Assembly (NCBI GenBank): GCA_021774435.1
Contig: JAJFJB010000471.1
Coordinates: forward strand, 1-36,276
Source: Alphaproteobacteria bacterium
Lineage (GTDB): Bacteria > Pseudomonadota > Alphaproteobacteria > UBA8366 > GCA-2717185
DNA: 36,276 nt
Reading direction: 5' to 3'
The position numbers and the translations under genes were made by a program. The notes beneath the pieces are model-generated. The model was not told the DNA's origin. It ran no database searches and saw only the letters and a list, made by a program, of their open reading frames with translations. Each line of letters begins with the position of its first letter. Position 1 is the first letter of the stretch. Shown here piece by piece: positions 14,493 through 32,241 of this stretch.

Positions 14493-15119
14493 TCAGGAGG
14501 CCCAGCGGTGCCGCGCCTTGTACTGTTCGGTGAAGCGCGTGATGTCGGCATCGAATTCCAACGTCAGTCCGATATCGTCGAGGCCATTCAATAGACGATG
14601 TTTGTCGAACGCGTCGATTTCGAACTGGTAGACCGTCTGGTCGGGCCCGGTCAGACTTTGAGTGTCGAGATCGATGGCGATTTCCGCGCCGGGGCTTTCG
14701 CGCAGCTGTTGCCGGAGGGTTTCACAATCTTCCGAGGGTAAACGGATGGGCAGCACACCATTCTTGATGCAGTTGCTGTAGTGGATATCGCCAAAGCTGG
14801 GCGCGATGACGGAGCGGACGTTATTGGCCCGCAGTGCCGTTACCGCGTTCTCTCGCGAAGAACCGCAACCCCAATTGAGATCGGCAACGAAAATCCGGCC
14901 ATTCCGATACGGTTCCCGGTTATAGATGAAATCCTTCTCCGACCCGTCGGGGTTAAATCGGAGATCATGGAGTAGAAATGTTCCGAATTCCGGGTCGTTC
15001 CCCGGCCGCCGGAGAAAGCGGGCCGGAATGATCTGATCGGTGTCGCAGTTGGCAATGTCGATCGGCACGGCGATCGAAGCAAAAGTTTTGAAGGGCTCCA
15101 ACCCATTTGACGCGGCCAT
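14493..15119 (-). CDS. leuD: 3-isopropylmalate dehydratase small subunit (or related hydro-lyase small subunit)
   Basis: A 208-residue swivel-domain protein of the aconitase superfamily. Typical LeuD segments are GLEPFKTFASIAVPIDIANCDTDQIIPARFL, LNWGCGSSRENAVTALRANNVRSVIAPSFGDIHYSNCIKNGVLPI and the C-terminal LTLEFDADITRFTEQYKA. The start ATG 15117-15119 follows GAGGAG, two bases after the leuC stop, so translation is coupled. It pairs with LeuC to form the heterodimer that isomerises 2- and 3-isopropylmalate, or in paralogues a related methyl- or dimethyl-malate. No other leucine gene lies in the window, so the substrate is uncertain. Longer frames running upstream into leuC are artefacts. 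Confidence 0.9.
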   Translation of the reverse strand: MAASNGLEPFKTFASIAVPIDIANCDTDQIIPARFLRRPGNDPEFGTFLLHDLRFNPDGSEKDFIYNREPYRNGRIFVADLNWGCGSSRENAVTALRANNVRSVIAPSFGDIHYSNCIKNGVLPIRLPSEDCETLRQQLRESPGAEIAIDLDTQSLTGPDQTVYQFEIDAFDKHRLLNGLDDIGLTLEFDADITRFTEQYKARHRWAS

Positions 15120-15121
15120 CT

Positions 15122-16525
15122 CTATTTCTCCTCGGCGAGTTTGCGGACATCTGTGAACCGGCCGGTAACGGAAGCTGCGGCGGCCATGGCGGGACTGACA
15201 AGGTGGGTCCGGCTGTCGAGACCTTGGCGACCACGGAAATTGCGGTTGCTTGTTGATGCGGAACGCTCGCCGGGCGCGAGCATGTCGCCGTTCATGGCGG
15301 CGCACATGGAGCAACCGGGCTCGCGCCACTCCATGCCTGCGTCGATGAAAATCCGGTCGAGGCCTTCCGCCTCCGCTTGTTTCTTCACCAGACCGGAGCC
15401 TGGTACGACAAGGGTGCGCACTTGAGCACGGCGGCCCTTGGCGACCGATGCGGCGGCACGCATATCCTCGATCCGGCTGTTGGTGCAGGCACCGATGAAG
15501 ACGGTATCGACGGTGATGTCGGACAGCGGCATGCCTGGCTTCAAATCCATATAGTCGAGGGTCGCTTCCATATCCGCGCGAACCAGCGAGTCGGATTCGG
15601 TAGCGGGATCGGGCACAGTTTCGGTGACGGGCAGCGCCCATTGCGGGCTATTGCCCCAGGTGACCATCGGGGCGAGGGCGTCACCGTCGAGCGTAACTTC
15701 CTTGTCGTAATACGCATCGTCATCGGACGAGAGAGTGCGCCAGTACGCGACGGCCTCATCCCATCGTTTTTCCTTTGGTGCGTATGGACGTCCGGCGCAA
15801 TAGTCGATCGTCTTGTCGTCCGGCGCAATGATACCGGAACGCGCGCCCGCTTCGATACTCATGTTGCAGACGGTCATGCGTCCTTCCATCGACATTGCCT
15901 CGATCGCCGATCCCGCATATTCGATTGAGTATCCCGTGCCGCCGGCGGCACTGATTTCGCGGATGATCGCGAGGATGACATCCTTGCCGCTCACGCCGAA
16001 ACCAAGCCGACCGGTGATATTGATGCGCATCGTTTTCGGTTTCCGTAACCACAGCGACTGAGTCGCCAGGGTATGTTGCACTTCCGTCGAACCGATGCCG
16101 AAAGAAATGCAACCCAAGGCGCCATGCGTTGAGGTATGGGAGTCCCCGCATACGAGGGTAAGTCCCGGCAGCGTGATGCCTTGCTCAGGTCCGACCACGT
16201 GGACGATGCCGTGCCGGTCATCGGTCATTGGGAAATGCGTGAAACCGAATTCTTCGGCCGACTTTTCTAGAACCTCGACCGTTTCCCGCATTTCGCCTTC
16301 CGGAATGTCCTGCAGAACTTTGGCCGTGGTCGGTATGCTGTGGTCGGGTGTGCCGAACAGTTTGTCGGGTTCGCGGATTTCTAATCCCTTGGCCTTCAGC
16401 ATCCCAAAGGCACGGAAATGGAGGTCGTGGATCAAATGCCGGTCGATATAGAGGAGGACGTCGCCATCCTCTCGCGTCGTGATGACGTGCTCGTCCCAGA
16501 TTTTTTCGAATAATGTCTTGGCCAT
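15122..16525 (-). CDS. leuC: 3-isopropylmalate dehydratase large subunit (or related hydro-lyase large subunit)
   Basis: A 467-residue aconitase-family subunit. The [4Fe-4S] cluster ligands are Cys347 (GACTNSR), Cys405 and Cys408 ([10 protein letters not shown]). [34 protein letters not shown] and [29 protein letters not shown] are conserved active-site regions. The N-terminal segment [36 protein letters not shown] departs from the usual LeuC form (HEVTSPQAF ... DHNVST) in a way often seen in secondary paralogues. With no leuA or leuB nearby and a setting of catabolic genes, a role on a leucine-like substrate such as dimethylmalate is possible. It is the first gene of the leuC-leuD pair; its promoter must lie in 16526-16643. 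Confidence 0.9.
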
Positions 16526-16643: not shown

Positions 16644-19600
16644 TCAGTCGTCCAACGTTTTGCGGAGTGTCTTTGCCAAATCCATGTTACGGAACGGTTT
16701 GAGGAGGAGAGTGGCATCTCCGTCCCGTTGGACCGAGGGATTCAGCTTATTCGCTGTATAACCCGACATAAAGATTACCTTTATATTCGGCCGCCGTTCT
16801 TTTACCGATTCCGCCAGTGCCGGGCCACTGATACCCCCGGGCATTACAACGTCGGTGAGAAGAAGGTCGATGGTACCAACCTGTTCGAGAATTTCGAGGG
16901 CGGCTTTGCCGGATTCCGCCGCCGAAACGATATATCCAAGATTGCCTAGGTAATTCGTCACAAGTTCCAGCATCCCAGGATCGTCTTCAACTACTAGGAT
17001 GCTTTCTCCCTTTGCTTTTGGTGTGCTGGGCTCTTCCAAGGGATCGTCCTGTTCGGATTTTTCGACTTGGGGAAGAAAAACCTTAACCATTGTTCCTTTA
17101 CCGACATCGCTTTTGATTTCAACGTGGCCGCCGGACTGTTTAGTGAATCCGAATACCATGCTCAGGCCGAGGCCGGATCCCTCGCCGACTCTCTTTGTGG
17201 TGAAAAACGGATCGAACGCCTGCACTTGGATTTCGGGTGACATACCGGTGCCGGTGTCGGTTACCGCAAGCACGACATAGTCGCCAGGGGATACCTCTGG
17301 CCGCATCGCCACGTAATCTTCATCAAGATGAACCTTATCGGTTTCGATACTGAGCGTTCCGCCGTCCGGCATCGCGTCGCGCGCGTTGACGGCAAGATTG
17401 AGCAGTACGCTCTCGAGCTGCGCTGGGTCGACTTTCGTTGTCGGCATAGAAGAATCAAGATTGGCCCTAATTTCGACCGTCTCACCAAGGGTGCGATGCA
17501 GCATGTCCAGAACGCCCGCAATATGCTGGTTCAAATCGACCACTTTGGGCGACAAGGCTTGTTTGCGCGAGAAGGCGAGAAGTTGCTTATTCAATGTGGC
17601 ACCGCTCAAGGCAGCTTTCATTGCCGGTTCCAACAATGCGGTCAGCTCTTCGTTTTCACGTAACTCTTCGGATAGAAAGTCGAGATTCCCGATAATGACA
17701 CCCAACAAATTATTGAAATCGTGCGCCACGCCGCCTGTTAATTGGCCCACAGCTTCCATCTTTTGAGCTTGAACAAGTTGGCTTTGCAAGTCGTATTGAT
17801 CGGTAACGTCCATATTGACAGTGCCGATCGCGATGCACTCTCCGCCGGGGCCCAATATCGGAAATTTGTGATTTAGGGTTCTACGCGTTACGCCATCGGG
17901 GAAGATCAATTCTCGTTCTTCAACGACCGGTTCTCTTTGTGCAACGACCTGTTGATCATGGGTCTTACTGATCCGAATTTTGTCGGACGGAAAGAAATCA
18001 TCGATGGTTTTGCCGAGCCAATCTTCATCGCTATCGACATTCAGCCATTCACGGAATGTTTTGTTCGCAATTAGATAATGGCCTTCGATATCCTTCAGGT
18101 AGATAGCGGCGGGAGAGTTGTCGACGACCGCTCGGAACCGCGCCTCGCTTTCCTTGACCAAGCGCTCGGCGTGTTTGCGCTCGGAAACGTCATGGGTCAT
18201 GCCGAAGAATCCGCGCACGGCACCATCTTCCGCAATGTCCGGAACATTGGTTATCTCGACATCTCGAGTCGTGCCATCTGGAAACGAGACGTTGGCCTCA
18301 AAGGTGACCTTATTTCCCTTTAATGTTTCTTTGATTTGCGCACGGTACTTTTCATAGCTGTCTCCCTGGAGTTCCATGGGTGACTTGCCGACAAAGGCTT
18401 CCGGTGTCGTGGCATACCATTCGGCGCCCGTCTTGTTGGCCAGGACGTACTGCTCGTTGGCGTTGACATAGGTGATGAGTACAGGCAGCGAGTCTATCAC
18501 GAGGCGCAGCTGTTGCTCGCTTTCGCGCAGTGCCGCTTCCATTTTCTTGCGGTTCGCAATGTCGGTCATGATTGTGCCGACCAGCGAAATGGCGCCCCCG
18601 GTGTTCCTGACAGGGAACTTCGTAACGATGCATTGAATTTGAGTGCCGTCTGGTAGAGATGCAATTCGTTCTTCCGAAATCGTCCTGCCCTCGGTGACGA
18701 CGCGTCTTTCCATTTCCCGGGTCGCCTGGGCGTGCTCCGGCGCCATGTATTCGACCGCGGATTTCCCGACAAGCGTTGCTGCTGGCTGTCCGTGCATTTT
18801 TTCATAGGCACGGTTGACGACCAGGAGTTTGTGATCCAGACCTTTGAGAGAAATTGGTGTTGGGCTGCTGTCGATTACTGAGCGCAGCAGCGCTTCGCTT
18901 TCGCGCAGGGCATCTTCCATTCGTTTCCGTTCGGATATGTCGGTGCTAATTGACCCGATGCCCATTAGCCTCCCGTCGGTGTCATAGGCTGGAAACTTGG
19001 TGACTTCTCGCGGGTGAAAGGTGCCGTCCTTTGCCTTCCAATCTCGTTGGTGGGTAACTACACCGCCATGTTCCATAGCATCTTTGTCATGGTCTTTGAC
19101 GACGGCTGCCTGGTGTGCTGATTCGATATCATCAGGCATTTTTCCGATTAAATCCCGAACGGATAAGTTGCGGGATTTTGCGAACGCCTCGTTGACAAGA
19201 AGGTAGCGTCCGTCGGTGTCTTTCAGGGTTATCCGAGAGTGGTAATTGTCGACAATCGCCCGCAGTTGCGCTTCGCTATTACGCTTTGCCTCTTCAGCCT
19301 TCCTGAGGTTGCTAATGTCCGTCATGATCGTGCCGATCAGCGTAATTTCTCCGTCCGCGTTAACGATTGGGAACTTCGTTGCAACGCTTTGTACTTGTGT
19401 TCCATTCCGGAGGGTCGCAACACGTTCCTTTGAACTCGTCTTGCCGGTTTCGATGACACGGTTTTCTTGCAATTCCGCCACTTTCGTCAGCTTTGGGGTC
19501 ATATAGACAGACGAAGTTCGACCGATGACTTGGTCGGCGGGAACGCCGGTAATTTTTTCGAACGCCTTATTTACGACGACAAAATTGTGATCCAAATCTT

Positions 19601-21998
19601 TGAGTGTAATAGGCGATGGGCTGCTGTCGATGATGGAACGTAGCAACGACTCGCTTTCTCGCAAGGCGTCTTCCGCTTTCTTGCGGTCACTGATATCGGT
19701 AACAATCGTGCCAAGAAGTGTCACTTTCCCCTGCTCATTGGCGATGGGGAATCGCGTGACGATGCTTTCCATAATGTTTCCGTTTGGCAATGTAAGCGAG
19801 CGTTCCTCGGATTGCTTCTTTCCGGTTTCGATTACCTGCCGATCCAAGGCGTGAACACGTTCGGCATGCTCATTATGCAAAAATTCAGTGACGACGTGGC
19901 CGATCAACTGGCCGGAGGTCAGTTGGAATACTTCTTCGAATGCTTGGTTAACGACCAATAGTTTGTGATCCAGGCCCTTGAGCGAAATCGGAGTAGGGCT
20001 GCTGTCAATGACCGAGCGCAGCAAAGCCTCGCTCTCCCGCAACGCATCTTGGGCTCGTTTTCGCTCGGTTATGTCGATGCCGATCGTCCCGATGCCCATC
20101 AACTTGCCATCGGCATCGTAAGTTGGAAACTTGGTGATCGCGACCGGGTAACTTTCGCCGAATTTGTTGACCCAAACGCGCTCATAGGTGATCGGTGCGC
20201 CACCTTCCAGTGCTGCCAGGTCATGCTCCTTGACGACGGCGGCATGCTCTGGTGTTTCTAATTGTTCCGGGGTGACACCAATGCACTCTTCGACCGAAAC
20301 TCGACGCAGTTTCGCGAAGGCGTCGTTGACGAGAAGGAACCGGCCTTCGAGATCCTTTAGGGAAATCAGCGAAGGATAATTGTCGATGATGGCGCGCAAA
20401 TGGGCCTCAGTTTCGCGCTTCGCGTTTTCGGCTACTTTGCGCTCCGTAATATCGACGACGGTTGCTTGAATGGTTTCCTTGTTATCCCACATAATCGTGC
20501 GCGCGGTATTGTCGAGCCAAATCCGCGAACCGTCTTTGCGAATGCCTTGAAACTCATGGCGGTTCGGCGCTTCACCACCTTCAGTGTGCGCTGTTTGGTG
20601 CATTGTTAGTCGCGCAACTTCACCGGTCGCGAACAATGGCGCAATCGATTCCATCGCAAGAATTTCGTCCGGACTGTCATAGCCGAACATGACCGCCCAA
20701 GCTTGATTTACATATATCGGTTTAAAATCTCGGTGGAGGAGGATGCCTTGAACCGATCCTTCGGTCAGGTCTCTGTAGCGGGCTTCGGAGGCTCGTAGAG
20801 CTTCCTCTGTGCGCACTTGTTCGCTTTCGTCAGAGCCGATGGAGCCAATACCGATTAGCGTGCCGTCGGCATCCAAGACGGGAAACTTGGTATAGCGCCG
20901 ATACCAAGATGTGCCGTTCTCGTACTCTACATATCCTTCTCCATGCACAACTTCACCGGTATCAATGACACGGCGATCGGCGGCGAGAATTTTAGCGACA
21001 TCTGCTGTGCTCTCACTTTGCTGATAAGTCTTTCCGATGTAGTCACCATCGCCGCGCTTTTTCTTGAACGCTTCGTTGACCAAAAGATAGCGGCCGTTGA
21101 GATCCTTGAGATTCATGGTCGCGTTGCTGTTATCGATGAAGTTCCGTAGCAGCGTTTCGCTTTCCGCCAGCTTGCGCTCGGCGCGTTTTTGTTCCGTGAT
21201 ATCGATTGCAACAGTCCCTATCGCGGATATCGTGCCCTCGTCCGACTTGACAGGGAATTTAATAAGGATCCTGTCGTGGGTACTGCCATCTTCCTTCCGG
21301 ACTCGAATTTCTTCCTGAATCGAGTCACCGCTCTCGATGACCGACTGTTCCATGGCGGCCATCGCATGGAACCTGTTTTGGTCCTGAAGTAGTTCTGCAG
21401 TGTATTTCCCGACGACATTGTCGACGCTCTTTCCCAACCAATCGGCATGGGATTCATTCACCATCAGATGGCGTCCGTCCGTGTCCTTCAAACTCATGTT
21501 GACCGGTGTGTTTTCAAAGAAAGCCCGGAACCGTTCTTCGCTCTCCCGCAAGGCCCGTTCCGCGGCATCTTTTTCCGCTTCAAGACGGAGACGGTCGAAA
21601 CACCGGTTCAGCACGGCGTCGAGCATGTTTATTTCGACCGGTTTGTAGAGGTACTCCGAGGCTCCATTGCGTAGGGCACGAACGGCGGAGCTTGTGTCAG
21701 CGTGGCCCGTGACCAAAATGCATTGAATGTTCGGCCGCACCTTACGTAACTCGGCAATGAGGTCGACTCCATCCTCCATTCCGAGCCTTAGATCGATGAC
21801 TGCAACGTCGGCAGCGAATTGGCCGGCGCGTTCAATTGCGCTATCGCCGTCGTCTGCAGTTGTCGCGGCATATCCGATATCTCGCAGCGCATCAGCCGTT
21901 GCATCGGCAAGATCACAGTCGTCATCGACAATTACAACACGCCGTAAATTCAGCTGTTCGATGGGGGTTGGAAATGCGTCTAAAGATGCAGTCCTCAT
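16644..21998 (-). CDS. Hybrid histidine kinase with N-terminal receiver, ten PAS/PAC units and C-terminal receiver
   Basis: A soluble 1784-residue signalling protein. Residues 20-135 form a receiver (VVIVDDDCDL, phospho-Asp69 in VIDLRLG, Thr97, Lys119). Residues about 150-1400 hold ten PAS/PAC units, each opening with a variant of LRESExxLRxxID and closing with GTIxxDIxxRKxAE. The kinase core follows: His1426 in GGVAHDFNN, the N-box NLAVNARDAMPDGG, and DTGTGMS with GEGSGLGLSM. A second receiver runs from about 1665 to 1780 (ILVVEDD, Asp1716 in LLTDVVMP). The start at ATG 21996-21998 has AAGGAG nine bases upstream and overlaps the stop of the membrane kinase gene as ATGA. No histidine phosphotransfer domain or output domain is present, so phosphate must pass to a separate protein. 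The signals sensed are unknown. Confidence 0.95.
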   Translation of the reverse strand: MRTASLDAFPTPIEQLNLRRVVIVDDDCDLADATADALRDIGYAATTADDGDSAIERAGQFAADVAVIDLRLGMEDGVDLIAELRKVRPNIQCILVTGHADTSSAVRALRNGASEYLYKPVEINMLDAVLNRCFDRLRLEAEKDAAERALRESEERFRAFFENTPVNMSLKDTDGRHLMVNESHADWLGKSVDNVVGKYTAELLQDQNRFHAMAAMEQSVIESGDSIQEEIRVRKEDGSTHDRILIKFPVKSDEGTISAIGTVAIDITEQKRAERKLAESETLLRNFIDNSNATMNLKDLNGRYLLVNEAFKKKRGDGDYIGKTYQQSESTADVAKILAADRRVIDTGEVVHGEGYVEYENGTSWYRRYTKFPVLDADGTLIGIGSIGSDESEQVRTEEALRASEARYRDLTEGSVQGILLHRDFKPIYVNQAWAVMFGYDSPDEILAMESIAPLFATGEVARLTMHQTAHTEGGEAPNRHEFQGIRKDGSRIWLDNTARTIMWDNKETIQATVVDITERKVAENAKRETEAHLRAIIDNYPSLISLKDLEGRFLLVNDAFAKLRRVSVEECIGVTPEQLETPEHAAVVKEHDLAALEGGAPITYERVWVNKFGESYPVAITKFPTYDADGKLMGIGTIGIDITERKRAQDALRESEALLRSVIDSSPTPISLKGLDHKLLVVNQAFEEVFQLTSGQLIGHVVTEFLHNEHAERVHALDRQVIETGKKQSEERSLTLPNGNIMESIVTRFPIANEQGKVTLLGTIVTDISDRKKAEDALRESESLLRSIIDSSPSPITLKDLDHNFVVVNKAFEKITGVPADQVIGRTSSVYMTPKLTKVAELQENRVIETGKTSSKERVATLRNGTQVQSVATKFPIVNADGEITLIGTIMTDISNLRKAEEAKRNSEAQLRAIVDNYHSRITLKDTDGRYLLVNEAFAKSRNLSVRDLIGKMPDDIESAHQAAVVKDHDKDAMEHGGVVTHQRDWKAKDGTFHPREVTKFPAYDTDGRLMGIGSISTDISERKRMEDALRESEALLRSVIDSSPTPISLKGLDHKLLVVNRAYEKMHGQPAATLVGKSAVEYMAPEHAQATREMERRVVTEGRTISEERIASLPDGTQIQCIVTKFPVRNTGGAISLVGTIMTDIANRKKMEAALRESEQQLRLVIDSLPVLITYVNANEQYVLANKTGAEWYATTPEAFVGKSPMELQGDSYEKYRAQIKETLKGNKVTFEANVSFPDGTTRDVEITNVPDIAEDGAVRGFFGMTHDVSERKHAERLVKESEARFRAVVDNSPAAIYLKDIEGHYLIANKTFREWLNVDSDEDWLGKTIDDFFPSDKIRISKTHDQQVVAQREPVVEERELIFPDGVTRRTLNHKFPILGPGGECIAIGTVNMDVTDQYDLQSQLVQAQKMEAVGQLTGGVAHDFNNLLGVIIGNLDFLSEELRENEELTALLEPAMKAALSGATLNKQLLAFSRKQALSPKVVDLNQHIAGVLDMLHRTLGETVEIRANLDSSMPTTKVDPAQLESVLLNLAVNARDAMPDGGTLSIETDKVHLDEDYVAMRPEVSPGDYVVLAVTDTGTGMSPEIQVQAFDPFFTTKRVGEGSGLGLSMVFGFTKQSGGHVEIKSDVGKGTMVKVFLPQVEKSEQDDPLEEPSTPKAKGESILVVEDDPGMLELVTNYLGNLGYIVSAAESGKAALEILEQVGTIDLLLTDVVMPGGISGPALAESVKERRPNIKVIFMSGYTANKLNPSVQRDGDATLLLKPFRNMDLAKTLRKTLDD
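17800..21550 (-). repeat. Tandem array of ten PAS/PAC-coding units with a three-unit super-period
   Basis: Each unit is about 125 codons. Two unit types can be told apart: one with LRAI(I/V)DNY (units 4 and 7) and one with LRS(V/I)IDSSP (units 5, 6 and 8). Units 5 and 8 share an identical run of about 31 residues, spaced exactly 1134 bases (378 codons) apart. Their DNA differs at roughly one base in five, mostly at silent positions. Confidence 0.85.
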
Positions 21999-24667
21999 TC
22001 GGCTGCACTCCTTGAATTCGAGGGGTATTGCAGGGGAAGGCAAAGAACTGCCTCCGTTCCTAGGTCCGGGTCGCTTTTGATCTTCAAAGTTCCGGCATGG
22101 GCCTCGACAATCTGTTTGACGATTGAAAGCCCGAGTCCAACTCCAAAACTCTTGGTGCTATAGAGCGGCTCAAAAATATGGTCGAGTATGTCGCTCGACA
22201 TACCTGGACCGGTATCGCTGATCGTGATCTCAAGGTCGGTGTGCGTCAGCCGTGAAGCAAGGATTATCGACTTATCCCTATTGCTTGACGTGTCGACCTC
22301 AAGTACCGCGTGACGCGCATTATCGATCAGGTTGGTTATGGCGCGGCGCATTCGTTCCGCATCCAGTGCAAGGACTTGGTTCGGCGCGTTCAGGTCGGTC
22401 GATAGATTTATGCCTGCCGGGACTTCATACTCCGATAGAACGGACTTCAGCCAATCGTCGACCTTGACCAGCGCGAGTTCCGGGGGTCTTGACCGGGCAT
22501 AGTCCAGCATTTCATCGATTATCAAACTGCAGCGTTCGATATTCCGCTCAATGCGGCCGAGGGGCCGTTCGATGTCTATTCCTCTATCACGCACTTTCTT
22601 GGCAAGTGAGAAGACCGATGCGCTTATCGTGCCGAGTGGATTCCTAAGTTCATGGCTCACCGTGGCGCTGAGTTTGCCTAATGTCGCAAGCCGTTCGTTT
22701 CGGACCAGTTCTGCTTGCGCTTCCTCCAGCGCTTTCGTGCGTTCTTCGACACGGCGTTCAAGACTTTCGTTGAGTTGCTCTATTTTCCTTTCGGCTTCGT
22801 GGCGCCCGGTGACGTCTTGAACGGTGCCGAAAGACAAAAGCGGACTACCATCTTTGCCGAAAACGGTTCTGCAGCGTTCCTGGACCCATTTGATGCGCCC
22901 ATCCGGCATTAACAGCCGATGGTCGATGTTGTAGGGCGAGCGGTGGGTCAAAGAATCGCTGTACGCCTTGTTTACGGCTTCCTTGTCTTCAGGATGAATG
23001 GCATTCAAAAACGCTTCATAGGATGCGCCGAATTGTTCCGGGTCGATTGCAAACATGCGATAAATTTCGTCCGACCAAGTCAGCATACCTGTAACGTGGT
23101 TGAGTTCCCAGGAGCCGAGTTTCGCCATCCGCTGCGCCTCGAGGAGAAGATCCTGACTTTTGCGCAGTTCCTCTTCTGCATTCCGCCGTTCCGTAACGTC
23201 GAAATGCCAAAGCATCGTGCAGGTTTGTCCGTTGAAGCGGACCGGGCGCGAATTTATCGAGACCCACCATTCACTGCCATCCGACCGATAGCGCACGCCC
23301 TCGAAGTCGATGAGATCGCGACCGCTGCCGATGATCGCTCTGGCTTCCTCAAGCTTCCTGGGATCGACCCAGCTTTTGTGGATATCCATCTCGTAGAGGG
23401 CGTCCAGCGTGGAATAGCCAAACATTCTGGCCAACGCGTTGTTTGCGAACAGGCGTTTCGTTCTATTGCCGCTCGCTTCCGGAAAATGATCGACAACAGC
23501 GATCCCAATTGGGCTCTTATCCAATATTTCTCGGTTTTGTTCCTCGCTTTCCCGTAGAGCCTCCTCGGCGCGTTTTCGATCGTTGATGTCTTCTATTTGG
23601 GCGACGGCGACAGGGTTCCCGTCTTCATCGGTGGTGCCGACGGATACAGTGACCTGGGCCCAGGAAATAGCACCAGTTCTTGTAAGATATCGTTTTTCAT
23701 GCTGGATAAATGTGCGTTGGAGGCTTGACCATTGGCTCAGAGCGTTGCTCACCTTTTCAAGGTCATCCGGGTGGGTTACATCGCATGGGCCCATCTCAAG
23801 GAGCGTCTTCTCCGGATAACCAATAAATTCTGTGAACGCTTTGTTGACCCGGAGATATTTTCCCTGACTGCTGACCATGGCCATGCCGACGCCGGCATTT
23901 TCGAACAGGCTCCTGTAACTCTGTTCGCTTCGATTAAGCGAACTTGTTGCTTCCTGGACGGCCTCGGAGAGAGTCTCTTTCTCCAGCACGTCGAAGATGG
24001 CGAGCGTTTTATAAATCGTCGCGGTTATGAATATTGCCGAGGTGGTACGGGCAATTTGCACGGGAAAGCCGAAGGCCGCTGCGAAGTCACTTTGGTCGAA
24101 AACAAAAGAGGGCAACCCAACTGCGGTGCTGGTGATCGACGTAAGAAGGCAATAGGAAAGAAAACCGGTCGCTGCTAGTTTTGGCCATATTGTGTTCAAA
24201 CGATCCGATGCGAGTCGGTTGCGGTTTTGGTAAAGCACCAAAGCAGCGCCGAATGATCCTGGTATGCCGATTACATACCGAATAGCAAAGTCTCTTTGCG
24301 GCTGCTCATTTAGGAATATCAGTAAAATTATAAGCAAGCCGACAATGAGCGGCAGTGCAAGCTGGTTCAGAAAGTGGTTTGACGCGGTCCGTTGGTGCAG
24401 CTTGAACGCAAACTTTATGAGTGCACAGTACGAAACCCCTGCAAGAAATGCCGCAGGATATGGGCTCCCCATGAAAACCAGATCTCGGACCGCGGGCAGA
24501 TAACTCCATTCTGTGAGGCCATGCAAAACTCCGAAGAGACCGAGCCAGCGAAAACTTTGTGAAATTTCCTGGTGCCGGATGGGGGTTTGACGCACGAGGA
24601 CGGCGACCCCCATGGCTAGAAAGGCTGATCCATAAATCAAATAGATGAGATCAAGCTCTGTGTTCAT
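21995..24667 (-). CDS. Membrane PAS-domain sensor histidine kinase
   Basis: An 890-residue kinase. The first 220 residues form a multi-helix membrane region of about six or seven segments, including IYGSAFLAMGVAVLV, LALPLIVGLLIILLIFL, IPGSFGAALVLY and LAATGFLSYCLL. Three PAS units follow, opening at SYRSLFENAGVGMAMV, REILDKSPIGIAVV and MAKLGSWELN. A coiled linker (LNESLERRVEERTKALEEAQAEL) leads to the HisKA site, His672 in SATVSHELRNPLG, and then to the ATPase: NLIDNARHAV, DTGPGM and GVGLGLSIVK. ATG 24667 has an AGG six bases upstream. The last four bases overlap the start of the giant hybrid kinase, so the two are translationally coupled. It may phosphorylate the receiver at the N-terminus of that partner. 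Confidence 0.94.
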   Translation of the reverse strand: MNTELDLIYLIYGSAFLAMGVAVLVRQTPIRHQEISQSFRWLGLFGVLHGLTEWSYLPAVRDLVFMGSPYPAAFLAGVSYCALIKFAFKLHQRTASNHFLNQLALPLIVGLLIILLIFLNEQPQRDFAIRYVIGIPGSFGAALVLYQNRNRLASDRLNTIWPKLAATGFLSYCLLTSITSTAVGLPSFVFDQSDFAAAFGFPVQIARTTSAIFITATIYKTLAIFDVLEKETLSEAVQEATSSLNRSEQSYRSLFENAGVGMAMVSSQGKYLRVNKAFTEFIGYPEKTLLEMGPCDVTHPDDLEKVSNALSQWSSLQRTFIQHEKRYLTRTGAISWAQVTVSVGTTDEDGNPVAVAQIEDINDRKRAEEALRESEEQNREILDKSPIGIAVVDHFPEASGNRTKRLFANNALARMFGYSTLDALYEMDIHKSWVDPRKLEEARAIIGSGRDLIDFEGVRYRSDGSEWWVSINSRPVRFNGQTCTMLWHFDVTERRNAEEELRKSQDLLLEAQRMAKLGSWELNHVTGMLTWSDEIYRMFAIDPEQFGASYEAFLNAIHPEDKEAVNKAYSDSLTHRSPYNIDHRLLMPDGRIKWVQERCRTVFGKDGSPLLSFGTVQDVTGRHEAERKIEQLNESLERRVEERTKALEEAQAELVRNERLATLGKLSATVSHELRNPLGTISASVFSLAKKVRDRGIDIERPLGRIERNIERCSLIIDEMLDYARSRPPELALVKVDDWLKSVLSEYEVPAGINLSTDLNAPNQVLALDAERMRRAITNLIDNARHAVLEVDTSSNRDKSIILASRLTHTDLEITISDTGPGMSSDILDHIFEPLYSTKSFGVGLGLSIVKQIVEAHAGTLKIKSDPDLGTEAVLCLPLQYPSNSRSAAE

Positions 24668-25024: not shown

Positions 25025-26896
25025 TCAGCGTCCGAACGCGTATCCCTGAGTTGAGCGTGCCGTTGCAGATGCCTTGAGCAAATTGCCGTCTTGTGCCACT
25101 GCACACATCCGTCCCTGCGCCCAGTTGTCTCCCACGGATACCTCGTGGCCAAGAGTTTTGAGTTCGTCGACCGTTTCATCGGAGAAGCGGCCCTCGACCG
25201 TCAGAGAACGTAGCGCCGCGCGTTTTGGATAGAACGATGCGGGGAAATGCGATGTGTTGAAGGTGGGGGCGTCAGCTGCTTCCTGTAGGTTCTGGCCGTG
25301 ATGAACATGACGCAGGAAAAATTGGAGCGCCCATTGGTCCTGACGATCCGCGCCAGGGGTGCCGAACGCCATGTAAGGTTTGCCGCCACGGTTCGCGAAT
25401 CCGGGGCTCAAGGTCGTGCGTGGCCTTTTCCCAGGGGCGATGCTGCCTGGGGTGCCTTCTTCCAGCGTAAAGATTTGGCCTCGGTTCGACAGGGCAAATC
25501 CGAGTTCTGGGATCGTCGGGGAACTACGCATCCAACCGCCACTGGGCGTGATCGACACCATGTTGCCCTTTCGGTCCGCGACATCGAGATGCACGGTGTC
25601 GCCGGTCGCGATTGATGCGGCAGGGGCTATATCTATGGCCGGTAAGAGCGAGCCATCCTCCTGGACTGACAGGCGTTGGCCATCAGCAAGACCATAGACG
25701 ACGGGGCCGCCGAACCCTTCAATGCTGCCCGGTCGGATTGCATCCGAAGCATTTTCGCTAATTAGGGCGCGGCGCTTTGCGCTGTAATCTTCCGATAGTA
25801 GGGTCTCCATCGGTACATCGACGAAATCCGGATCACCGTAAAATTTTTCGCGGTCGGCGAAAGCGAGCTTGGTGCTCTCGACCACGTGGTGGACGAAATC
25901 CGCGCCGTTGGGGTCCATCGAGGCGAGATCGAAACCGCGAAGCAGTGCTAGTTGCTGCAGGAAGACCGGGCCCTGGCTCCAAGGGCCGCATTTGAAGACG
26001 GTGTAGTCGCCGTAGTCGAGCGAGAGCGGCGCTTCCACGCTGGCAGACCAGCGTGCCAGATCGTCGCCGGACAGGAAGCCGCTGTGGCGCCGGCCGGACG
26101 TGTCGAGAAATTCATTGCCGCGGCAGAAGCTGTCGATGATGTCGGCTACGAATCCGCGATAGAAAGCGTCGCGTGCCGCTTCGATCTGTTTCTCTCGGTC
26201 GCTCCCCGCAGCTTCCGCCTCGCTCAGAATGCGTTCGAACGTGTCTGCAAGCACCGGGTTGGAAAAGAGTTGGTTTGGCTTGGGGACATTGCCGTTCGGA
26301 CAATAGACAGCGGCGGAACTTGGCCAGTGTTCGACGAAGAGATTCTTTAGCGCGTCAATTGTCGCCACAACGCGGGCCGCGATGGGGTACCCGTTGCGGG
26401 CGTGGCCGATAGCGGGCTCAAGGACGTCGCGCACCCGCATCGTGCCCCAGTCGCGCAACAGCAGCATGAAGGCGTCGAACGCGCCCGGCACGACCAAGGG
26501 CAGCAAACCCGCGCCCGGTACGATATCGAGGTCGAGATTGCGGTAGGCTCCGACGGTTGCTTTGCCCGGCGCAACGCCTTGGCCGCAGATGACCGACACC
26601 TTTCGCGTCTTGCCGTCGCACAGGATAATCGGCGCGTCCCCGGCAGGGCCCGCCATGGAGGGCTCGACGACTTGCAGCGTGAAGGCTGTGGCGATAGCGG
26701 CGTCGAAAGCGTTGCCGCCCTTTTCGAGAAGGGACATGCCAGCGGCGGTGCCGAACCAATGGGTCGAGGCCACCATACCAAACGTTCCCGTAAGCTCAGG
26801 TCGCGTCGTAAAGGGCGGTTCTCCCGGCAGGCGCTTAGCGGGCGGCGTAGCGCTGCCGCGAAAGAGGTGTTCGATTTCCTGAGCGGTTAGAGTCAT
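25025..26896 (-). CDS. ggt: Gamma-glutamyltransferase family protein
   Basis: A 623-residue Ntn-hydrolase of the gamma-glutamyltransferase family, which hydrolyses or transfers gamma-glutamyl groups of amides such as glutathione. The precursor should cut itself before Thr434 in TGDTVHLDVADRKGNMVS, giving large and small subunits. The segment matches the E. coli TTHYSVVD nucleophile site, except that the second Thr is Val435. GGNAFDAAIATAFTLQVVEPSMAG and PSGGWMRSSPTIPELGF are other conserved blocks. There is no signal peptide, so it is probably cytosolic, unlike classic periplasmic forms. ATG 26896 has TAGGA upstream. A remnant glutamine-synthetase-type tail ends 49 bases before it, and the gmaS-mgs genes lie further upstream on the same strand, so gamma-glutamyl amides made by such ligases are plausible substrates. 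Confidence 0.93.
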   Translation of the reverse strand: MTLTAQEIEHLFRGSATPPAKRLPGEPPFTTRPELTGTFGMVASTHWFGTAAGMSLLEKGGNAFDAAIATAFTLQVVEPSMAGPAGDAPIILCDGKTRKVSVICGQGVAPGKATVGAYRNLDLDIVPGAGLLPLVVPGAFDAFMLLLRDWGTMRVRDVLEPAIGHARNGYPIAARVVATIDALKNLFVEHWPSSAAVYCPNGNVPKPNQLFSNPVLADTFERILSEAEAAGSDREKQIEAARDAFYRGFVADIIDSFCRGNEFLDTSGRRHSGFLSGDDLARWSASVEAPLSLDYGDYTVFKCGPWSQGPVFLQQLALLRGFDLASMDPNGADFVHHVVESTKLAFADREKFYGDPDFVDVPMETLLSEDYSAKRRALISENASDAIRPGSIEGFGGPVVYGLADGQRLSVQEDGSLLPAIDIAPAASIATGDTVHLDVADRKGNMVSITPSGGWMRSSPTIPELGFALSNRGQIFTLEEGTPGSIAPGKRPRTTLSPGFANRGGKPYMAFGTPGADRQDQWALQFFLRHVHHGQNLQEAADAPTFNTSHFPASFYPKRAALRSLTVEGRFSDETVDELKTLGHEVSVGDNWAQGRMCAVAQDGNLLKASATARSTQGYAFGR

Positions 26897-27089: not shown

Positions 27090-28793
27090 TTATTCAACGT
27101 GAATTGTCCGCTCCGGTGGGAAGTGAAGGGTAACCTTGGTCCCCTGGCCGATTTCGCTTTCGATATTCAAGCAGCCGCCATGCAACTCCATAAGCGAATT
27201 GCAAATCGACAGTCCGAGACCGGTTCCATCATGGTTGCGTATGTGGCTGTCAGCGACCTGTCCGAATGGCTTCATCACCTTGGGAATTTCCTCGGCGGCA
27301 ATACCAATGCCTGTGTCGGTGACACTGATTTCCTGGCCGCCGGATTCATCCAACCGTGTGTTGACGGACACGCGGCCACCCGGCGACGTGAATTTCAGTG
27401 CATTGGAAAGCAAGTTCAGCATGATCTGCTTGAACTGGCGCTCGTCGGCGCGAAGAAATGAACATTTTTCCGCCCCGAAAAACCGCACATCAATGCGTTT
27501 GGCCTCTATACGCAATCTTGCCATCGAAATGGTGTCGTTTATCGCCTTGCTGAGATCTACCTTGCTATCTTCCACCGTCGCCTCGCCGGCTTCGATTTTG
27601 GAGATGTCGAGTATGTAGGTGATAAGTCCGAGTAGGTGTTTGCCGGACGCTTGAATCGCCGCCGCGTATTCCGAATAACGTGGATTGTTGTGCGGGCCGA
27701 AGACCTCATCCTTGATCGCTTCGGAATACCCGAGGATTGAATTGAGCGGCGTCCGCAATTCGTGGCTCATGTTGGCCAGGAACTCTGATTTTGCCCGGTT
27801 GGCAAGTTCCGCATGCTCCTTGGCGACAAGCAAACTCGCCTTGGTCTCGGCCTCTGCCGTGACGTCGGACCCCGTACCCCGGTAGCCTTGAAAAGAACCG
27901 TCGGGGGCGTACACGGGCTTGCCGCTAATACGAAAATGTCCGATGCCGCCGTCGGGCGCGACCAGGGTGTAGTAGAAATCCCGGAAGGGGAGGCGCTTCG
28001 TCAAGACCTCGATGTGCGTGTGCCATGTTTCGTCTTTGGGCCCTACGTGTGCAAACTCGTCCCGAGTCTTGCCAATGACGTCGTCGACCTCGAACGGAAA
28101 CAGCTGGAAGAAGCGGGGCGAAAGAAAGGTAAAGCGCAGCTTGGAATCCGTTTCCCAAATCCAGTCGCCCGACACCTCTGCCACGTCGCGAAAACGCGCC
28201 TCACTTTCAGTGAGTGACTTGCCTGTCTGGATTTGTAGTTCGATTGCGTGCAGCAGAGACCCAAGAAGGGCAGTGGCGGGCGTAAACGTCACGACGAGGG
28301 GTAGTGCAATGTTGTCCATGACCGTCCCCACCACGGTGTCTGGCAAGAAAGTGAACAGAAGAATTTCGACCAAATGAACCAGGAGCCCGAACGCCAGTAG
28401 CTGCCATACGCCAATTCTCAGCCAGCCGCGTTGGTAAGCATGACGATAGACAAGCCCGAGAAGCACGCAAGAGATGACGACGGAAACGCCGACCGGCGCG
28501 CCGCCTCCGCCAAGCCAAACGCGGTAGCCGCCCGCGATAACAGCGGCGATGCCGCCAACAATCGGACCGCCAAACAGCCCGGCCATGCTCAATACAACGG
28601 AGCGGGCGTCGAAGATCACGCCGGGTGCCGCTTCTATCGGCGTCTCCATGCCGATGACGCATATTCCACCAAACAGAACGCCCGATAAAATTCGGCCGAC
28701 AAGCTCTCCGCTTGACCACCGCCTCGCAATGAAGCCTTGAACCAAGCACAACGCCAATAAAAGGGCGACAGCCTTGGTAAATTCAATGACCAT
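27090..28793 (-). CDS. Sensor histidine kinase with 5TM-LYT membrane domain and PAS domain
   Basis: A 567-residue membrane kinase. Residues 1-190 form a LytS-type 5TMR domain; FDARSVVLSMAGLFGGPIVGGIAAVIAGGYRVWLGG is its signature, usually linked to sensing small molecules or envelope state. A PAS/PAC unit covers about 195-315, then His344 in FLANMSHELRTPLNSILGYSEAI, an N-box in MLNLLSNALKFTSPGG, and DTGIGI with GTGLGLSICNSLMELHGG. The C-terminus lacks a receiver. ATG 28793 has no clear ribosome site. The 114 bases in front of it are strikingly AT-rich and probably hold its own promoter. It lies directly downstream of the gmaS-mgs genes on the same strand, so control of or response to methylated amines is an inference from position. 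No response regulator gene is adjacent. Confidence 0.92.
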   Translation of the reverse strand: MVIEFTKAVALLLALCLVQGFIARRWSSGELVGRILSGVLFGGICVIGMETPIEAAPGVIFDARSVVLSMAGLFGGPIVGGIAAVIAGGYRVWLGGGGAPVGVSVVISCVLLGLVYRHAYQRGWLRIGVWQLLAFGLLVHLVEILLFTFLPDTVVGTVMDNIALPLVVTFTPATALLGSLLHAIELQIQTGKSLTESEARFRDVAEVSGDWIWETDSKLRFTFLSPRFFQLFPFEVDDVIGKTRDEFAHVGPKDETWHTHIEVLTKRLPFRDFYYTLVAPDGGIGHFRISGKPVYAPDGSFQGYRGTGSDVTAEAETKASLLVAKEHAELANRAKSEFLANMSHELRTPLNSILGYSEAIKDEVFGPHNNPRYSEYAAAIQASGKHLLGLITYILDISKIEAGEATVEDSKVDLSKAINDTISMARLRIEAKRIDVRFFGAEKCSFLRADERQFKQIMLNLLSNALKFTSPGGRVSVNTRLDESGGQEISVTDTGIGIAAEEIPKVMKPFGQVADSHIRNHDGTGLGLSICNSLMELHGGCLNIESEIGQGTKVTLHFPPERTIHVE

Positions 28794-28907: not shown

Positions 28908-30212
28908 TCACGTGTCCAGCGTGTGGGTCAGTTCCCAGTTACTCTGGTGGCGCGAATAGTCGTTCCACTCATCGGTTTTGATCTTTACATAGGCTGAGGT
29001 GAATTCCGCGCCCAACGCTTGTTTAAACACTCTGCTACGGCCGAGCGCGCGGATCGCGTCGATCAGGTAAAGCGGTAGTAACCTGGCCCGGGCCTTATGG
29101 CCGTCCGCGTACATGTCCAAATCCGAACGTTTGCCGGGATCGCGTTTGTTCTCAATGCCGTCCAATCCGGCCGCGAGATAAGCCGCTTGCATGATGTAGG
29201 GGTTGGCGGCGCCGTCGGCGAGGCGAAACTCGAACCGGCCGTCGTCGGGGGTGCGCACCATGTGCGTGCGGTTGTTGCCGGACCATGTCACCGCATTTGG
29301 CGACCAGGTCGCGCCGGAATTCGTGACCGGAGCATTGATCCGCTTATAGCTATTTACCGTTGGATTCGTCATGGCGCAGAGCGCTTCGGCATGATGCAGC
29401 ACACCGCCGAGAAACAGATGCGCTAGCGCGGAAAGGCCGAGTTCGTCTTTCTTGTCGTGGAAGAGGTTCTTCTTCCCGGTTTTGTCCCAGACCGAAATAT
29501 GGATATGACAGCCATTGCCGGTCAGATGGAGAAACGGTTTCGGCATGAAGGTCGCGCGCAGGCCGTGGTTCTCGGCAATCGACTTCACCATGAATTTGAA
29601 GAAGGCGTGCCTGTCGGCGGTTACCAAGGCGTCGTCATAATCCCAGTTCATTTCAAATTGGCCGTTGGCGTCTTCGTGATCATTTTGGTAAGGGCCCCAG
29701 CCGAGCGTCTGCATGGCATCGCAGATTTCCGCGATGACTTCGTAGCGGCGCATTAAGGCGGACTGGTCGTAACAAGGTTTGGGATCGATATCGCGCGGAT
29801 CGGAGATGTCGGTGCCTTCGGGATCGATGAGATGATATTCGGCCTCGACCCCTGTTTTCATCCGGTAACCTTGCTTGGCGGCGGCGGCGATCATGCGCTT
29901 GAGGACGACACGCGGCGCCTGCTCGACGCTGGCGCCGTTCATCACGAGGTCGCCAGCGACCCAAGCCACTTCGGGCTTCCAGGGCAGTTGCATGACGCTC
30001 GTCGTGTCCGGTACGGCAAACATATCGGGGTGGGCGGGGGTCATATCGAGATAGGCGGCAAAGCCGGCGAAACCGGCACCGTCCTTTTCCATGCCGGCAG
30101 CGGCGGATGCAGGCACGAGCTTGGACCGCTGCACACCTTTCAGATCGGTAAAGTTGAACAGAAAATATTTAACGCTGTTCTTCTTGGCAAAGGCTTCCAG
30201 CTTGCTGGCCAT
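28908..30212 (-). CDS. gmaS: Type III glutamine synthetase family ligase, gamma-glutamylmethylamide synthetase-like
   Basis: A 434-residue ligase of the GlnT/GmaS branch, which joins glutamate to ammonia or methylamine with ATP. The active-site blocks are KTGVEAEYHLIDPEG (ExE metal site), QNDHEDANGQFEMNWDYDDAL, GNGCHIHISVW and the arginine-rich NNRTHMVRTPDDGRFEFRLAD. The N-terminal FNFTDLKGVQRSKLVP and the run FAAYLDMTPAHPDMFAVPDTTSVMQLPWKPEVAW match GmaS/GlnT proteins rather than biosynthetic GlnA. GGGGAG precedes ATG 30212. It follows mgsC by 20 bases, and the full mgsA-mgsB-mgsC-gmaS order matches the indirect methylamine oxidation gene set. Rhizobial glnT-glxBCD clusters are close relatives, so ammonia as substrate cannot be excluded. 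Confidence 0.88.
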   Translation of the reverse strand: MASKLEAFAKKNSVKYFLFNFTDLKGVQRSKLVPASAAAGMEKDGAGFAGFAAYLDMTPAHPDMFAVPDTTSVMQLPWKPEVAWVAGDLVMNGASVEQAPRVVLKRMIAAAAKQGYRMKTGVEAEYHLIDPEGTDISDPRDIDPKPCYDQSALMRRYEVIAEICDAMQTLGWGPYQNDHEDANGQFEMNWDYDDALVTADRHAFFKFMVKSIAENHGLRATFMPKPFLHLTGNGCHIHISVWDKTGKKNLFHDKKDELGLSALAHLFLGGVLHHAEALCAMTNPTVNSYKRINAPVTNSGATWSPNAVTWSGNNRTHMVRTPDDGRFEFRLADGAANPYIMQAAYLAAGLDGIENKRDPGKRSDLDMYADGHKARARLLPLYLIDAIRALGRSRVFKQALGAEFTSAYVKIKTDEWNDYSRHQSNWELTHTLDT

Positions 30213-30232
30213 AACGCGTCTCCCCGTGTTTG

Positions 30233-31540
30233 TCAGTTTTTGCCTGGAATCCAGTCAGTGCCCGCGAGCGGTACCTGTGCCATGGCGGCGGCTTCAACGG
30301 TCAATGCAACCATGTCCTCAGGCTCGAGATTGTGCACATGCGATTTGCCGCAGGCTCGTGCCAGGGTCTGGCACTCCATCGTCAATGTCGAGAGGTAGTT
30401 CTGCAACCGGCGTGCGCCTGCTTCGGGATCGAGCCGTTTCTCTAGTTCCGGATCTTGCGTGGTGATGCCGACCGGGCAGCGCCCCGTATGACACATATGA
30501 CAGGACCCCGGTGCGGTACCGAGTGCGGCGTAATCTTCTTTGTAAATCGGCGCGTTGCAGTTCAGGGCCATAAGGGAAGCCATACCGATCGACACGGCAT
30601 CGGCACCCAGCGCCAACGCTTTGGCGACATCGGCACCAGTGCGGATACCGCCGGAAACGATGAGCTGTACCTTGCGATGCATATCCATTTCGCGCAACGC
30701 GTCGACCGCGAGCCGGACTGCCGGCAGGGTTGGGATGCCGACATCTTCGATGAACACGTCCTGGGTCGCCGCGGTGCCGCCCTGCATGCCGTCGACAACG
30801 ACTGCATCCGCGCCGGCCTTGACCGATAGCATGACGTCATATCGCGTGCGGGTCGCGCCGACCTTCACATAGATCGGCTTTTCCCAATTGGTAATCTCGC
30901 GCAGTTCGCGGATCTTGATTTCCAGATCGTCCGGTCCGGTCCAGTCGGGGTGGCGGCAGGCACTGCGCTGATCGATTCCGGTTGGCAGCGTGCGCATGCC
31001 GGCGACACGGTCGGTGATTTTTTGGCCCAGCAGCATGCCGCCACCGCCGGGTTTCGCGCCTTGTCCCACGACGACTTCAATCGCATCGGCCTGACGCAGT
31101 TGATCGGGCGTCATGCCGTATCGCGACGGCAAATTTTGATAGACCATGGTCTTTGAACTTTCCCGTTCCTCCGGCGTCATGCCACCATCGCCCGTGGTCG
31201 TGCTGGTGCCCATGGCCGTTGCGGCGAGACCGATGGCCTTTTTGGCATTCGCGCCGAGCGCGCCGAAACTCATCCCAGCAATCGTGATGGGGATATCGAG
31301 CTCGATCGGCTTGGACGCATGGCGCGCGCCGATCGTGACGTTGGTGTCGCAGCGCTCGCGGTAGCCTTCCAACGGATAGCGTGACATGGAAGCGCCAAGA
31401 AAGACGAGGTCGTCGAAGTTCGGTACGTGGCGCTTCGCGCCGCCGCCGCGAATTTCGTAGATACCTTCCCGGGCCGCACGGTGGATTTCCGAGATCACGC
31501 GCGGCGGGTAGGTGGCGGAGGTTTGATATTTGTCGCTCAT
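30233..31540 (-). CDS. mgsC: Glutamate synthase-like FMN subunit of N-methylglutamate synthase
   Basis: A 435-residue TIM-barrel protein homologous to the FMN domain of glutamate synthase. SFGALGANAKKAIGLAATAMGTSTTTGDGGM and PIYVKVGATRTRYDVMLSVKAGADAVVVDGMQGGTAATQ form the flavin and 2-oxoglutarate site. GGIRTGADVAKALALGADAVSIGM is the phosphate-binding end. CHMCHTGRCPVG carries the three cysteines of a [3Fe-4S] cluster as in GltB. The start ATG 31538-31540 follows AAGGAA and lies 13 bases after the mgsB stop; a longer frame to 31639 overlaps mgsB and is rejected. With MgsA and MgsB it should make N-methylglutamate from methylamine and glutamate. The equivalent Rhizobium protein is GlxD. Confidence 0.88.
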   Translation of the reverse strand: MSDKYQTSATYPPRVISEIHRAAREGIYEIRGGGAKRHVPNFDDLVFLGASMSRYPLEGYRERCDTNVTIGARHASKPIELDIPITIAGMSFGALGANAKKAIGLAATAMGTSTTTGDGGMTPEERESSKTMVYQNLPSRYGMTPDQLRQADAIEVVVGQGAKPGGGGMLLGQKITDRVAGMRTLPTGIDQRSACRHPDWTGPDDLEIKIRELREITNWEKPIYVKVGATRTRYDVMLSVKAGADAVVVDGMQGGTAATQDVFIEDVGIPTLPAVRLAVDALREMDMHRKVQLIVSGGIRTGADVAKALALGADAVSIGMASLMALNCNAPIYKEDYAALGTAPGSCHMCHTGRCPVGITTQDPELEKRLDPEAGARRLQNYLSTLTMECQTLARACGKSHVHNLEPEDMVALTVEAAAMAQVPLAGTDWIPGKN

Positions 31541-31553
31541 GCCATTCCTTCGC

Positions 31554-32237
31554 CTAATAGCTGCCGGCGTTGTCAATTTTGAAATTATAGAGCTGCCGCG
31601 CGGATCCGTAGCGACGGAAGTCACCGGCATTGGCGTCAACGCCTGCCTGTTTCAGAAGTGATTCCACATCGGACCGGTGCTCGGACCGCATATCTTTTTC
31701 TACGCAATCCGCGCCCAAGCTCGCGACCGTGCCGCGGACGTAGATCTGCGCTTCGTATAGAGAATCGCCGAGATCGGCGCCGACGTCACCGAGGACGACG
31801 AGCCGGCCCGCCTGCGCCATGAAAGCGGCCATATGGCCAACCGACCCTTGCACGACGATATCCGCACCCTTGAGCGAGATCGCGCAGCGCGCGCTGGCGT
31901 CGCCTTCGACAACCAGCAAACCGCCATGCGCGGTCGCGCCGGCCGACTGGCTGACATCGCCCCGGACACGCACCAAGCCGGACATCATGTTCTCCGCGAC
32001 ACCGGTCCCGGCGTTGCCATTTATCGTGACCTTGGCTTCCTGATTCATGCCGGCGCAGTAATAGCCCGCATGGCCTTCAATCGTCACTTCGATGGGATGC
32101 ATCAGCCCGGCAGCCAGGGCGTGCGCGCCGCCTGGATGGAGGACGCGGAATTCGGACTCCCCGTCATCGCCATCGCGCCTTTGGAGGCGCCGATTGAGGT
32201 CGCGTACCGCGACGCTGCTCAAGTCGATTGTCTGCAT
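31554..32237 (-). CDS. mgsB: GXGXG-domain subunit of N-methylglutamate synthase
   Basis: A 227-residue protein corresponding to the C-terminal beta-helix (GXGXG) domain of glutamate synthase. Repeating turns such as VTIEGHAGYYCAGMN, VTINGNAGTGVAENMMSG, VRVRGDVSQSAGATAHGG, IVVQGSVGHMAAFMAQAG and LVVLGDVGADLGDSLY are visible. In glutamate synthase this domain plays a structural, channel-holding role. ATG 32235-32237 begins four bases after the mgsA stop; GGGGA lies a little far upstream, so coupling to mgsA translation is likely. The open frame upstream to 32348 overlaps mgsA and is not real. It corresponds to rhizobial GlxC. Confidence 0.87.
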   Translation of the reverse strand: MQTIDLSSVAVRDLNRRLQRRDGDDGESEFRVLHPGGAHALAAGLMHPIEVTIEGHAGYYCAGMNQEAKVTINGNAGTGVAENMMSGLVRVRGDVSQSAGATAHGGLLVVEGDASARCAISLKGADIVVQGSVGHMAAFMAQAGRLVVLGDVGADLGDSLYEAQIYVRGTVASLGADCVEKDMRSEHRSDVESLLKQAGVDANAGDFRRYGSARQLYNFKIDNAGSY

Positions 32238-32241
32238 GGTT

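Follow-up and report, generated by a model that had tools for sequence, protein, structure and literature searches.

The locus and the layout of the giant kinase

The window, that is, the whole stretch of 36,276 nucleotides that was analysed (contig JAJFJB010000471.1 of an alphaproteobacterial draft genome), contains a gene for a giant hybrid histidine kinase and, overlapping its start, a gene for a second sensor kinase. The features discussed below are the following, with residues (aa) counted in the giant kinase and its PAS units called U1 to U10:

21995..24667, minus strand: upstream sensor kinase, 890 aa, PAS3-HisKA-HATPase without REC; its stop overlaps the giant kinase start (ATGA)
16644..21998, minus strand: giant hybrid kinase, REC-PAS10-HisKA-HATPase-REC, 1784 aa (Pfam and NCBIfam)
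21612..21938, minus strand: REC1, aa 21-129, with VDDD at 24, IDLRLG at 68 and YKPVE at 118
21174..21554, minus strand: PAS unit U1, aa 149-275
20802..21173, minus strand: PAS unit U2, aa 276-399
20424..20801, minus strand: PAS unit U3, aa 400-525
20046..20423, minus strand: PAS unit U4, type A, aa 526-651, sister of U7 in the unit tree
19668..20045, minus strand: PAS unit U5, type B, aa 652-777
19947..20048, minus strand: first copy of an identical 34-residue run, aa 651-684
19290..19667, minus strand: PAS unit U6, type B, aa 778-903
18912..19289, minus strand: PAS unit U7, type A, aa 904-1029
18534..18911, minus strand: PAS unit U8, type B, aa 1030-1155 (AlphaFold2 model with pLDDT 90.5)
18813..18914, minus strand: second copy of the run (linker helix, strands A and B), aa 1029-1062
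18162..18533, minus strand: PAS unit U9, aa 1156-1279, best match (41%) of the first PAS unit of the two-PAS paralogue L093
17781..18161, minus strand: PAS unit U10, aa 1280-1406, closest (52%) to the fifth unit of kinase L059
17067..17747, minus strand: kinase core HisKA and HATPase, aa 1418-1644, with the His in GGVAHDFNN (starting at 1422) and N, G1, F and G2 boxes
16656..17003, minus strand: C-terminal REC2, aa 1666-1781, with LLTDVVMPG at 1713

Pfam and NCBIfam matches in the giant kinase comprised two REC stretches, ten TIGR00229 PAS stretches, HisKA and HATPase, which bears out the REC-(PAS)10-HisKA-HATPase-REC layout given in a first-pass annotation of this DNA; the coordinates given there are also correct. 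The protein has what defines a hybrid histidine kinase: a HisKA domain with the phospho-acceptor His, an HATPase domain with N, G1, F and G2 boxes, and a fused REC with its Asp. The PAS units start at aa 149, 276, 400, 526, 652, 778, 904, 1030, 1156 and 1280; U3 to U8 each have a length of 126 residues, so that from U3 as far as U9 successive unit starts are exactly 126 codons apart. The ATG at 21998 overlaps the stop of the upstream gene as ATGA, with AAGGAG a short way 5' of it. A TTG at 22043 is a possible alternative start, less likely because of this overlap, and the frame is open across 1837 codons. By hydropathy, the giant kinase has no membrane segment and the upstream kinase has a hydrophobic, membrane N-terminal region. 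The motif NC[RK]F[LI]Q, the flavin-binding cysteine motif of LOV photoreceptors, does not occur in the 1784 residues of the giant kinase. Promoter and terminator scans between 16300 and 25300 gave no excess over shuffled sequence (4 versus 5.4 and 13 versus 12.2, respectively).

On the far side of the giant kinase gene, 118 bp past it, lies leuC (15122-16525, minus strand), followed by leuD (within 14493-15641, minus strand), neither with an obvious signalling link. On the upstream side, a gamma-glutamyltransferase and a 5TM-5TMR_LYT sensor kinase with one PAS (25025-26896 and 27090-28793, minus strand) sit between the kinase pair and four genes at 28908-33141 (minus strand), which code for a class II glutamine amidotransferase (299 aa), a GXGXG protein (264 aa), a protein with the glutamate-synthase FMN domain (468 aa) and a type III glutamine synthetase (434 aa). 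This set resembles the mgsABC-gmaS methylamine (N-methylglutamate) cluster. The regulated pathway is possibly gamma-glutamyl metabolism.

The internal repeat and the identical front of U5 and U8

The best ungapped match of the giant kinase to itself was found at offset 378, where 156 of 276 residues agree (aa 523-798); offsets 252 and 126 came next. Between units, identities were 56% for U4/U7, 55% for U5/U8, 53% for U6/U8, 50% for U5/U6 and 26% for U6/U9. To place the units, a FastTree phylogeny was built from 154 PAS units, ten of them from the giant kinase and the rest from further kinases encoded in the window, in the own genome or in relatives; units scoring less than 40 bits were excluded. 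At full length, U4 grouped with U7 (0.95), and U5, U6 and U8 formed a clade (0.90) within which U5 joined U8 (0.82). These groupings confirm the order A-B-B-A-B that had been assigned to units 4-8 and indicate that this order arose via internal duplication. The duplication of a multi-PAS segment, also put forward earlier, is thus borne out by the tree as well as by the self-match at offset 378. A super-repeat of three units and 378 codons, as had been claimed, did not hold, with U6 and U9 sharing only 26% of their residues and the self-match spanning about two units. On these alignments the strong super-repeat is one of two units (U4-U5 = U7-U8), with U6 as an extra B unit.

About 31 identical residues had been noted in U5 and U8, exactly 378 codons apart. 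The distance is correct, and the run is of 34 consecutive residues. At the DNA level, 19 of its 102 nucleotides differ; 16 of these changes fall on third and 3 on first codon positions, and every one is silent, in agreement with the earlier remark that the protein has been held while silent sites drifted at about one base in five. Shuffling the columns of the U5/U8 alignment 100,000 times produced runs of at most 22 residues. Across 11,628 unit pairs the front was on average better conserved than the rest (27.5% versus 20.1%); the U5/U8 pair showed the largest excess of front over rest identity (z 5.4) and a run of 32 residues after domain trimming, versus 20 for the next longest. When only units of one protein were compared, in 49 kinases with at least three PAS, the giant included, the next longest exact run was 16.

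The grouping of U5 with U8 depended on this front. Within the first 33 columns, U5 matches U8 throughout and U6 departs from the two at one shared set of 8 sites (25/33 identical to either), so that the constraint does not extend to type B units in general. Over the back 93 columns, identities were 42 for U6/U8, 38 for U5/U6 and 36 for U5/U8, with a bootstrap of 0.85 for U6/U8 over U5/U8. When the first 33 residues were removed, the tree retained U4 with U7 (0.93) and the clade of U5, U6 and U8 (0.87), inside which U6 with U8 was now favoured (0.60). U5 and U8 thus group, as had been expected of them, at full length but not without the front. The grouping comes only from the identical front, the remainder slightly, and not significantly, favouring U6/U8.

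Concerning the age of the copies, 19 of the 34 codons in the run differ, versus 22.8 expected for independent draws from the codon usage of the giant gene, and in the rest of U5/U8 21 of 36 differ, versus 22.3 expected. A simple likelihood estimate gave t 2.15 for the run, with a lower limit of 1.0 and no upper limit, and 2.2 for U4/U7, 2.45 for U5/U6 and 1.8 for U6/U8, all with limits that overlap. Since silent sites are near saturation, the duplication is old; judged from these counts the unit copies are all old, and their order in time cannot be set. Recent gene conversion of the 34-residue run was rejected, as its silent sites are near saturation, and active recoding against recombination is unsupported, the silent divergence being no greater than expected. 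An identical front across near-saturated silent sites most likely means that it was long held by selection, while 57 of the 93 residues behind it came to differ. This identity is the sole feature of the gene that is out of the ordinary.

AlphaFold2 models, based on 13 window sequences for U8 (pLDDT 90.5, pTM 0.80) and 11 for U7-U8 (pLDDT 90.0, pTM 0.58), show a PAS fold. In the U8 model, where the identical run corresponds to residues 4-37, a helix (2-19) precedes strands at 24-28 and 33-36. The U7-U8 model has an unbroken helix between the units (123-145), the relative placement of the domains being unreliable at pTM 0.58. By structural element, U5 and U8 are identical at 15/15 positions of the helix, 18/18 of strands A-B, 11/43 of helices C-F, and 5/10, 8/17 and 8/15 of the later strands. 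A fold search with the U8 model returned LOV, NifL, BvgS, DosP and other PAS domains among the 50 matches listed (TM about 0.65-0.78), and no ligand was singled out among them; sequence matches to solved chains, looked at for the cofactor question, were weak (best E 6e-05). In PpsR (PMC3949515), PAS N-cap helices are central to dimer contacts and fuse to long inter-domain helices. By this analogy, dimer contact and signal passing would be the likeliest cause of the frozen front. The pockets of the units, we infer, diversified while the front was kept.

Relatives of the giant kinase and of its upstream partner

Among 74 related PAS kinases, with duplicates removed, the number of PAS units ranged from 1 to 10, with the giant kinase at the top and two others having nine; because the sampling favours matches and contig or locus ends truncate many of the proteins, the counts are lower bounds. 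Outside this count are the REC-first hybrids L085 and L087, presumably merged with L088. One nine-PAS kinase (L123, G021:C404) is cut by contig ends and has a frame of 1454 codons; another (L158, G121:C53), from a different family of the class, is a PAS9-HisKA-HATPase-REC protein with a full open frame of 1779 codons. Up to 19 PAS in one histidine kinase (Aulosira tenue A0A1Z4MZL8) are reported in PMC10468136. The earlier description of the layout as extreme in length thus applies locally, at the top of the 74, but not generally, given the nine-PAS relatives and the 19 reported. Ten PAS units are a high number and not a record; multi-sensor kinases are already known, and the finding is in this respect largely ordinary. 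The phrase 'ten PAS domains' is used in another sense in PMC10468136, and PMC10578306 is about ArcB. Our literature search brought up no report of kinases with internally duplicated PAS units; in view of how it was worded, this counts as weak evidence.

In the neighbourhoods of related kinases we found a three-gene cassette consisting of a sensor kinase, a REC-REC protein and a REC-PAS2-HisKA-HATPase-REC hybrid. It occurs at five places, one on contig C123 of the own genome (L093) and four in the genomes G024, G018, G015 and G027 (L085-L088); in the hybrid of L085, one of the two PAS units was below threshold in one scan and detected in another. At a sixth place (G007:C102) a sensor kinase and a REC-REC protein are accompanied by a REC-HisKA-HATPase protein. 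In a tree of 67 kinase cores, the kinase upstream of the giant fell into a clade with the kinases heading these cassettes (0.999), of 11 leaves and 9 distinct genes. Two of the genes come from L063, which has no cassette. A search with the upstream kinase core (E <= 1e-38) gave 26 matches in 8 of 43 genomes of the order, one being the window's own; the other 25 comprised 6 in cassettes, 2 in L063 and 17 in 14 further regions. None of these 14 regions, several of which end at contig ends, contained a REC-REC gene paired with a REC-first one. The kinase family is therefore wider than the cassette, and the idea of a cassette-specific clade was dropped.

At the giant locus itself, an upstream kinase belonging to this clade and a downstream REC-first hybrid kinase are both present. 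The REC-REC gene is absent between them, the two genes overlapping by ATGA, and a local REC model found no receiver outside the giant kinase in window ORFs of at least 90 codons. Two further relatives of the upstream kinase may be mentioned. In L063 (G027:C50), two sensor kinases of the clade, with two and seven PAS units, stand in tandem and are followed by a single-REC protein. By identity, the top match of the upstream kinase core is L122 (G025:C205), with 78% over 120 aa; this six-PAS protein of another family of the order is cut by the contig end at which its HisKA lies, and has 44% identity over 515 aa of the protein.

Parts of the giant kinase resemble different proteins. The L093 hybrid is 45% identical to it across aa 1154-1782 and 34% identical across aa 5-313; its first PAS unit matches U9 best, and its second corresponds to U10 by position only. 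A paralogue on contig C153 (L084) is 47.5% identical to aa 12-291 (REC1-U1) and breaks off in its second PAS unit, where the contig ends. This REC-PAS-PAS protein (G000:C153:1-1131) has VADRS in place of the REC acidic patch, and its receiver, to judge from these residues, may not accept phosphate. In its kinase core, the giant lies closest to L059, a kinase with TM segments and five PAS (62% over aa 1268-1644, support 0.93 in the 67-core tree). The giant gene thus has a mosaic make-up, in which REC1 and an expanded array are joined to a common kinase core, and it likely grew from a REC-first hybrid with few PAS by insertion and duplication between REC and U9.

Searches with the whole protein in 38 relatives and the own genome, with up to 12 candidates scored per genome, found no orthologue with four or seven units among the matches listed, of which the best outside the own genome by E-value had 43% identity over aa 1089-1782. 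With U4-U8 as the query, the ten other genomes of the family gave at best 31% over 8-640 of that query (G007:C325, a frame with one stop). For the 43 genomes of the order, the own included, in each of which at most 29 candidates were scored, the matches listed at E <= 1e-60 were only those in the own genome and the one in G007. A pattern scan of genome contigs found one relative, of 28%, among 38 candidate stretches. U8 alone, searched in 385 genomes of the class (up to 11 candidates scored per genome), reached E <= 1e-18 in at least five genomes, the own included, with identities of 37-39% outside it. With no ten-unit orthologue among the matches listed for the 43 genomes of the order, own included, the array does not look there like the ancient fixed form that, by the first-pass annotation, would have spoken against its reading.

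A proposed relay, its alternatives and known systems

On balance, we favour a reading in which the giant protein is a hybrid kinase that takes the second step in a relay of two kinases, its PAS array having come about by an old duplication of an A-B pair plus an extra B unit. As the upstream membrane kinase has no receiver, it would probably phosphorylate REC1 of the giant. The ten PAS units, lying in the cytoplasm and linked through unbroken helices, could form a long parallel dimer that adds further inputs, and their signals would travel down the helices to the kinase core and tune it. The core would then pass phosphate to its own REC2 and from there to a separate phosphotransfer protein, for which the genome holds a ChpT-like candidate: PF10090, the ChpT family, matched with 69 bits at C462, and a second match had 23 bits. 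Hpt matches in the genome numbered six at E <= 0.001, five of them above the family cut-off. For CheA3/CheS3, PMC3868531 describes phosphorylation of the receiver of one hybrid kinase by another kinase. We counted the intact catalytic and phospho-site motifs, the ATGA overlap and the cassette-clade upstream kinase for the relay, and the missing REC-REC gene and a core nearest to L059, not to the cassette hybrids, against it.

Another history of U8 would make it a recombinant with a U5-like front and a U6-like back, formed by old unequal exchange or gene conversion, the front being frozen later. The trees, which join U5 and U8 by their identical front and U6 and U8 by the back (0.60), would fit this, as would the informative sites of the back (18 for U6U8, 14 for U5U6 and 12 for U5U8) and the fact that all 8 variable front sites set U6 apart. 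We nevertheless regard it as rather unlikely: the run is silently about as diverged as the rest (19/34 versus 22.8 and 21/36 versus 22.3), leaving no recent exchange, the back signal is not significant (bootstrap 0.85), and constraint on the front would still be required afterwards. Less likely again is that the array is mainly a spacer or scaffold in which most PAS bind nothing and unit number drifts near-neutrally by duplication and loss. A range of 1 to 10 units among the 74 kinases, many cut by contig or locus ends, is what such drift might produce, but the PAS signature is kept in all ten TIGR00229 stretches, and duplicates that retain 50-56% of their residues with silent sites near saturation argue for units under selection.

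It is also conceivable, though we give this little credence, that the fronts are tags matching PAS partners across the dimer, so that U5 and U8, able to pair with one another besides pairing with themselves, would create two registers 378 residues apart and a mechanical switch; it would explain why the U5 and U8 fronts stayed identical while silent sites nearly saturated and the rest diverged. Hardest of all to believe is an assembly artefact, a chimeric or collapsed repeat. The source is indeed a draft of 527 contigs with 6.3% contamination, in which PAS kinase frames run off several contig ends, but identical DNA would then be expected instead of 19 silent differences in 102 nt, and the frame is open over 1837 codons. 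The gene suggests a way in which very long sensor arrays expand, by in-gene duplication of unit pairs in which the front is kept and the part with the pocket can vary. As REC-first hybrids of one genome, each behind a related sensor kinase, the two-PAS and the ten-PAS forms are a natural pair for studying what a relay gains from additional PAS units.

Among known systems, CckA is close in the catalytic part. The solved kinase cores nearest to the giant by sequence are 5idj, annotated as a histidine kinase (aa 1409-1646, E 2e-47), and 5idm, annotated as CckA (aa 1485-1646, E 2e-29), and the NCBIfam CckA models also cover its C-terminal receiver. However, its scores of 463.8 (NF046020) and 296.8 (NF046026) bits lie far below the equivalog cut-off of 1000, and it differs from CckA by an N-terminal REC and ten PAS units. 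With the cassette hybrids (L093, L085-L088) it shares the REC-first layout and an upstream sensor kinase of the same clade, whereas these have two PAS instead of ten and a REC-REC gene between the kinases, which is absent in the window. CheS3 of Rhodospirillum centenum likewise carries N-terminal receivers on a kinase, and a second kinase phosphorylates one of these (PMC3868531), but it has two RECs, one PAS and an HWE-type kinase in a che cluster; the core of the giant is HisKA/HATPase_c by Pfam, and no che gene was found among the scanned subset of its window neighbours. Compared by description, the cyanobacterial A0A1Z4MZL8 of Aulosira tenue resembles the giant in bearing a long PAS array on a histidine kinase (PMC10468136).
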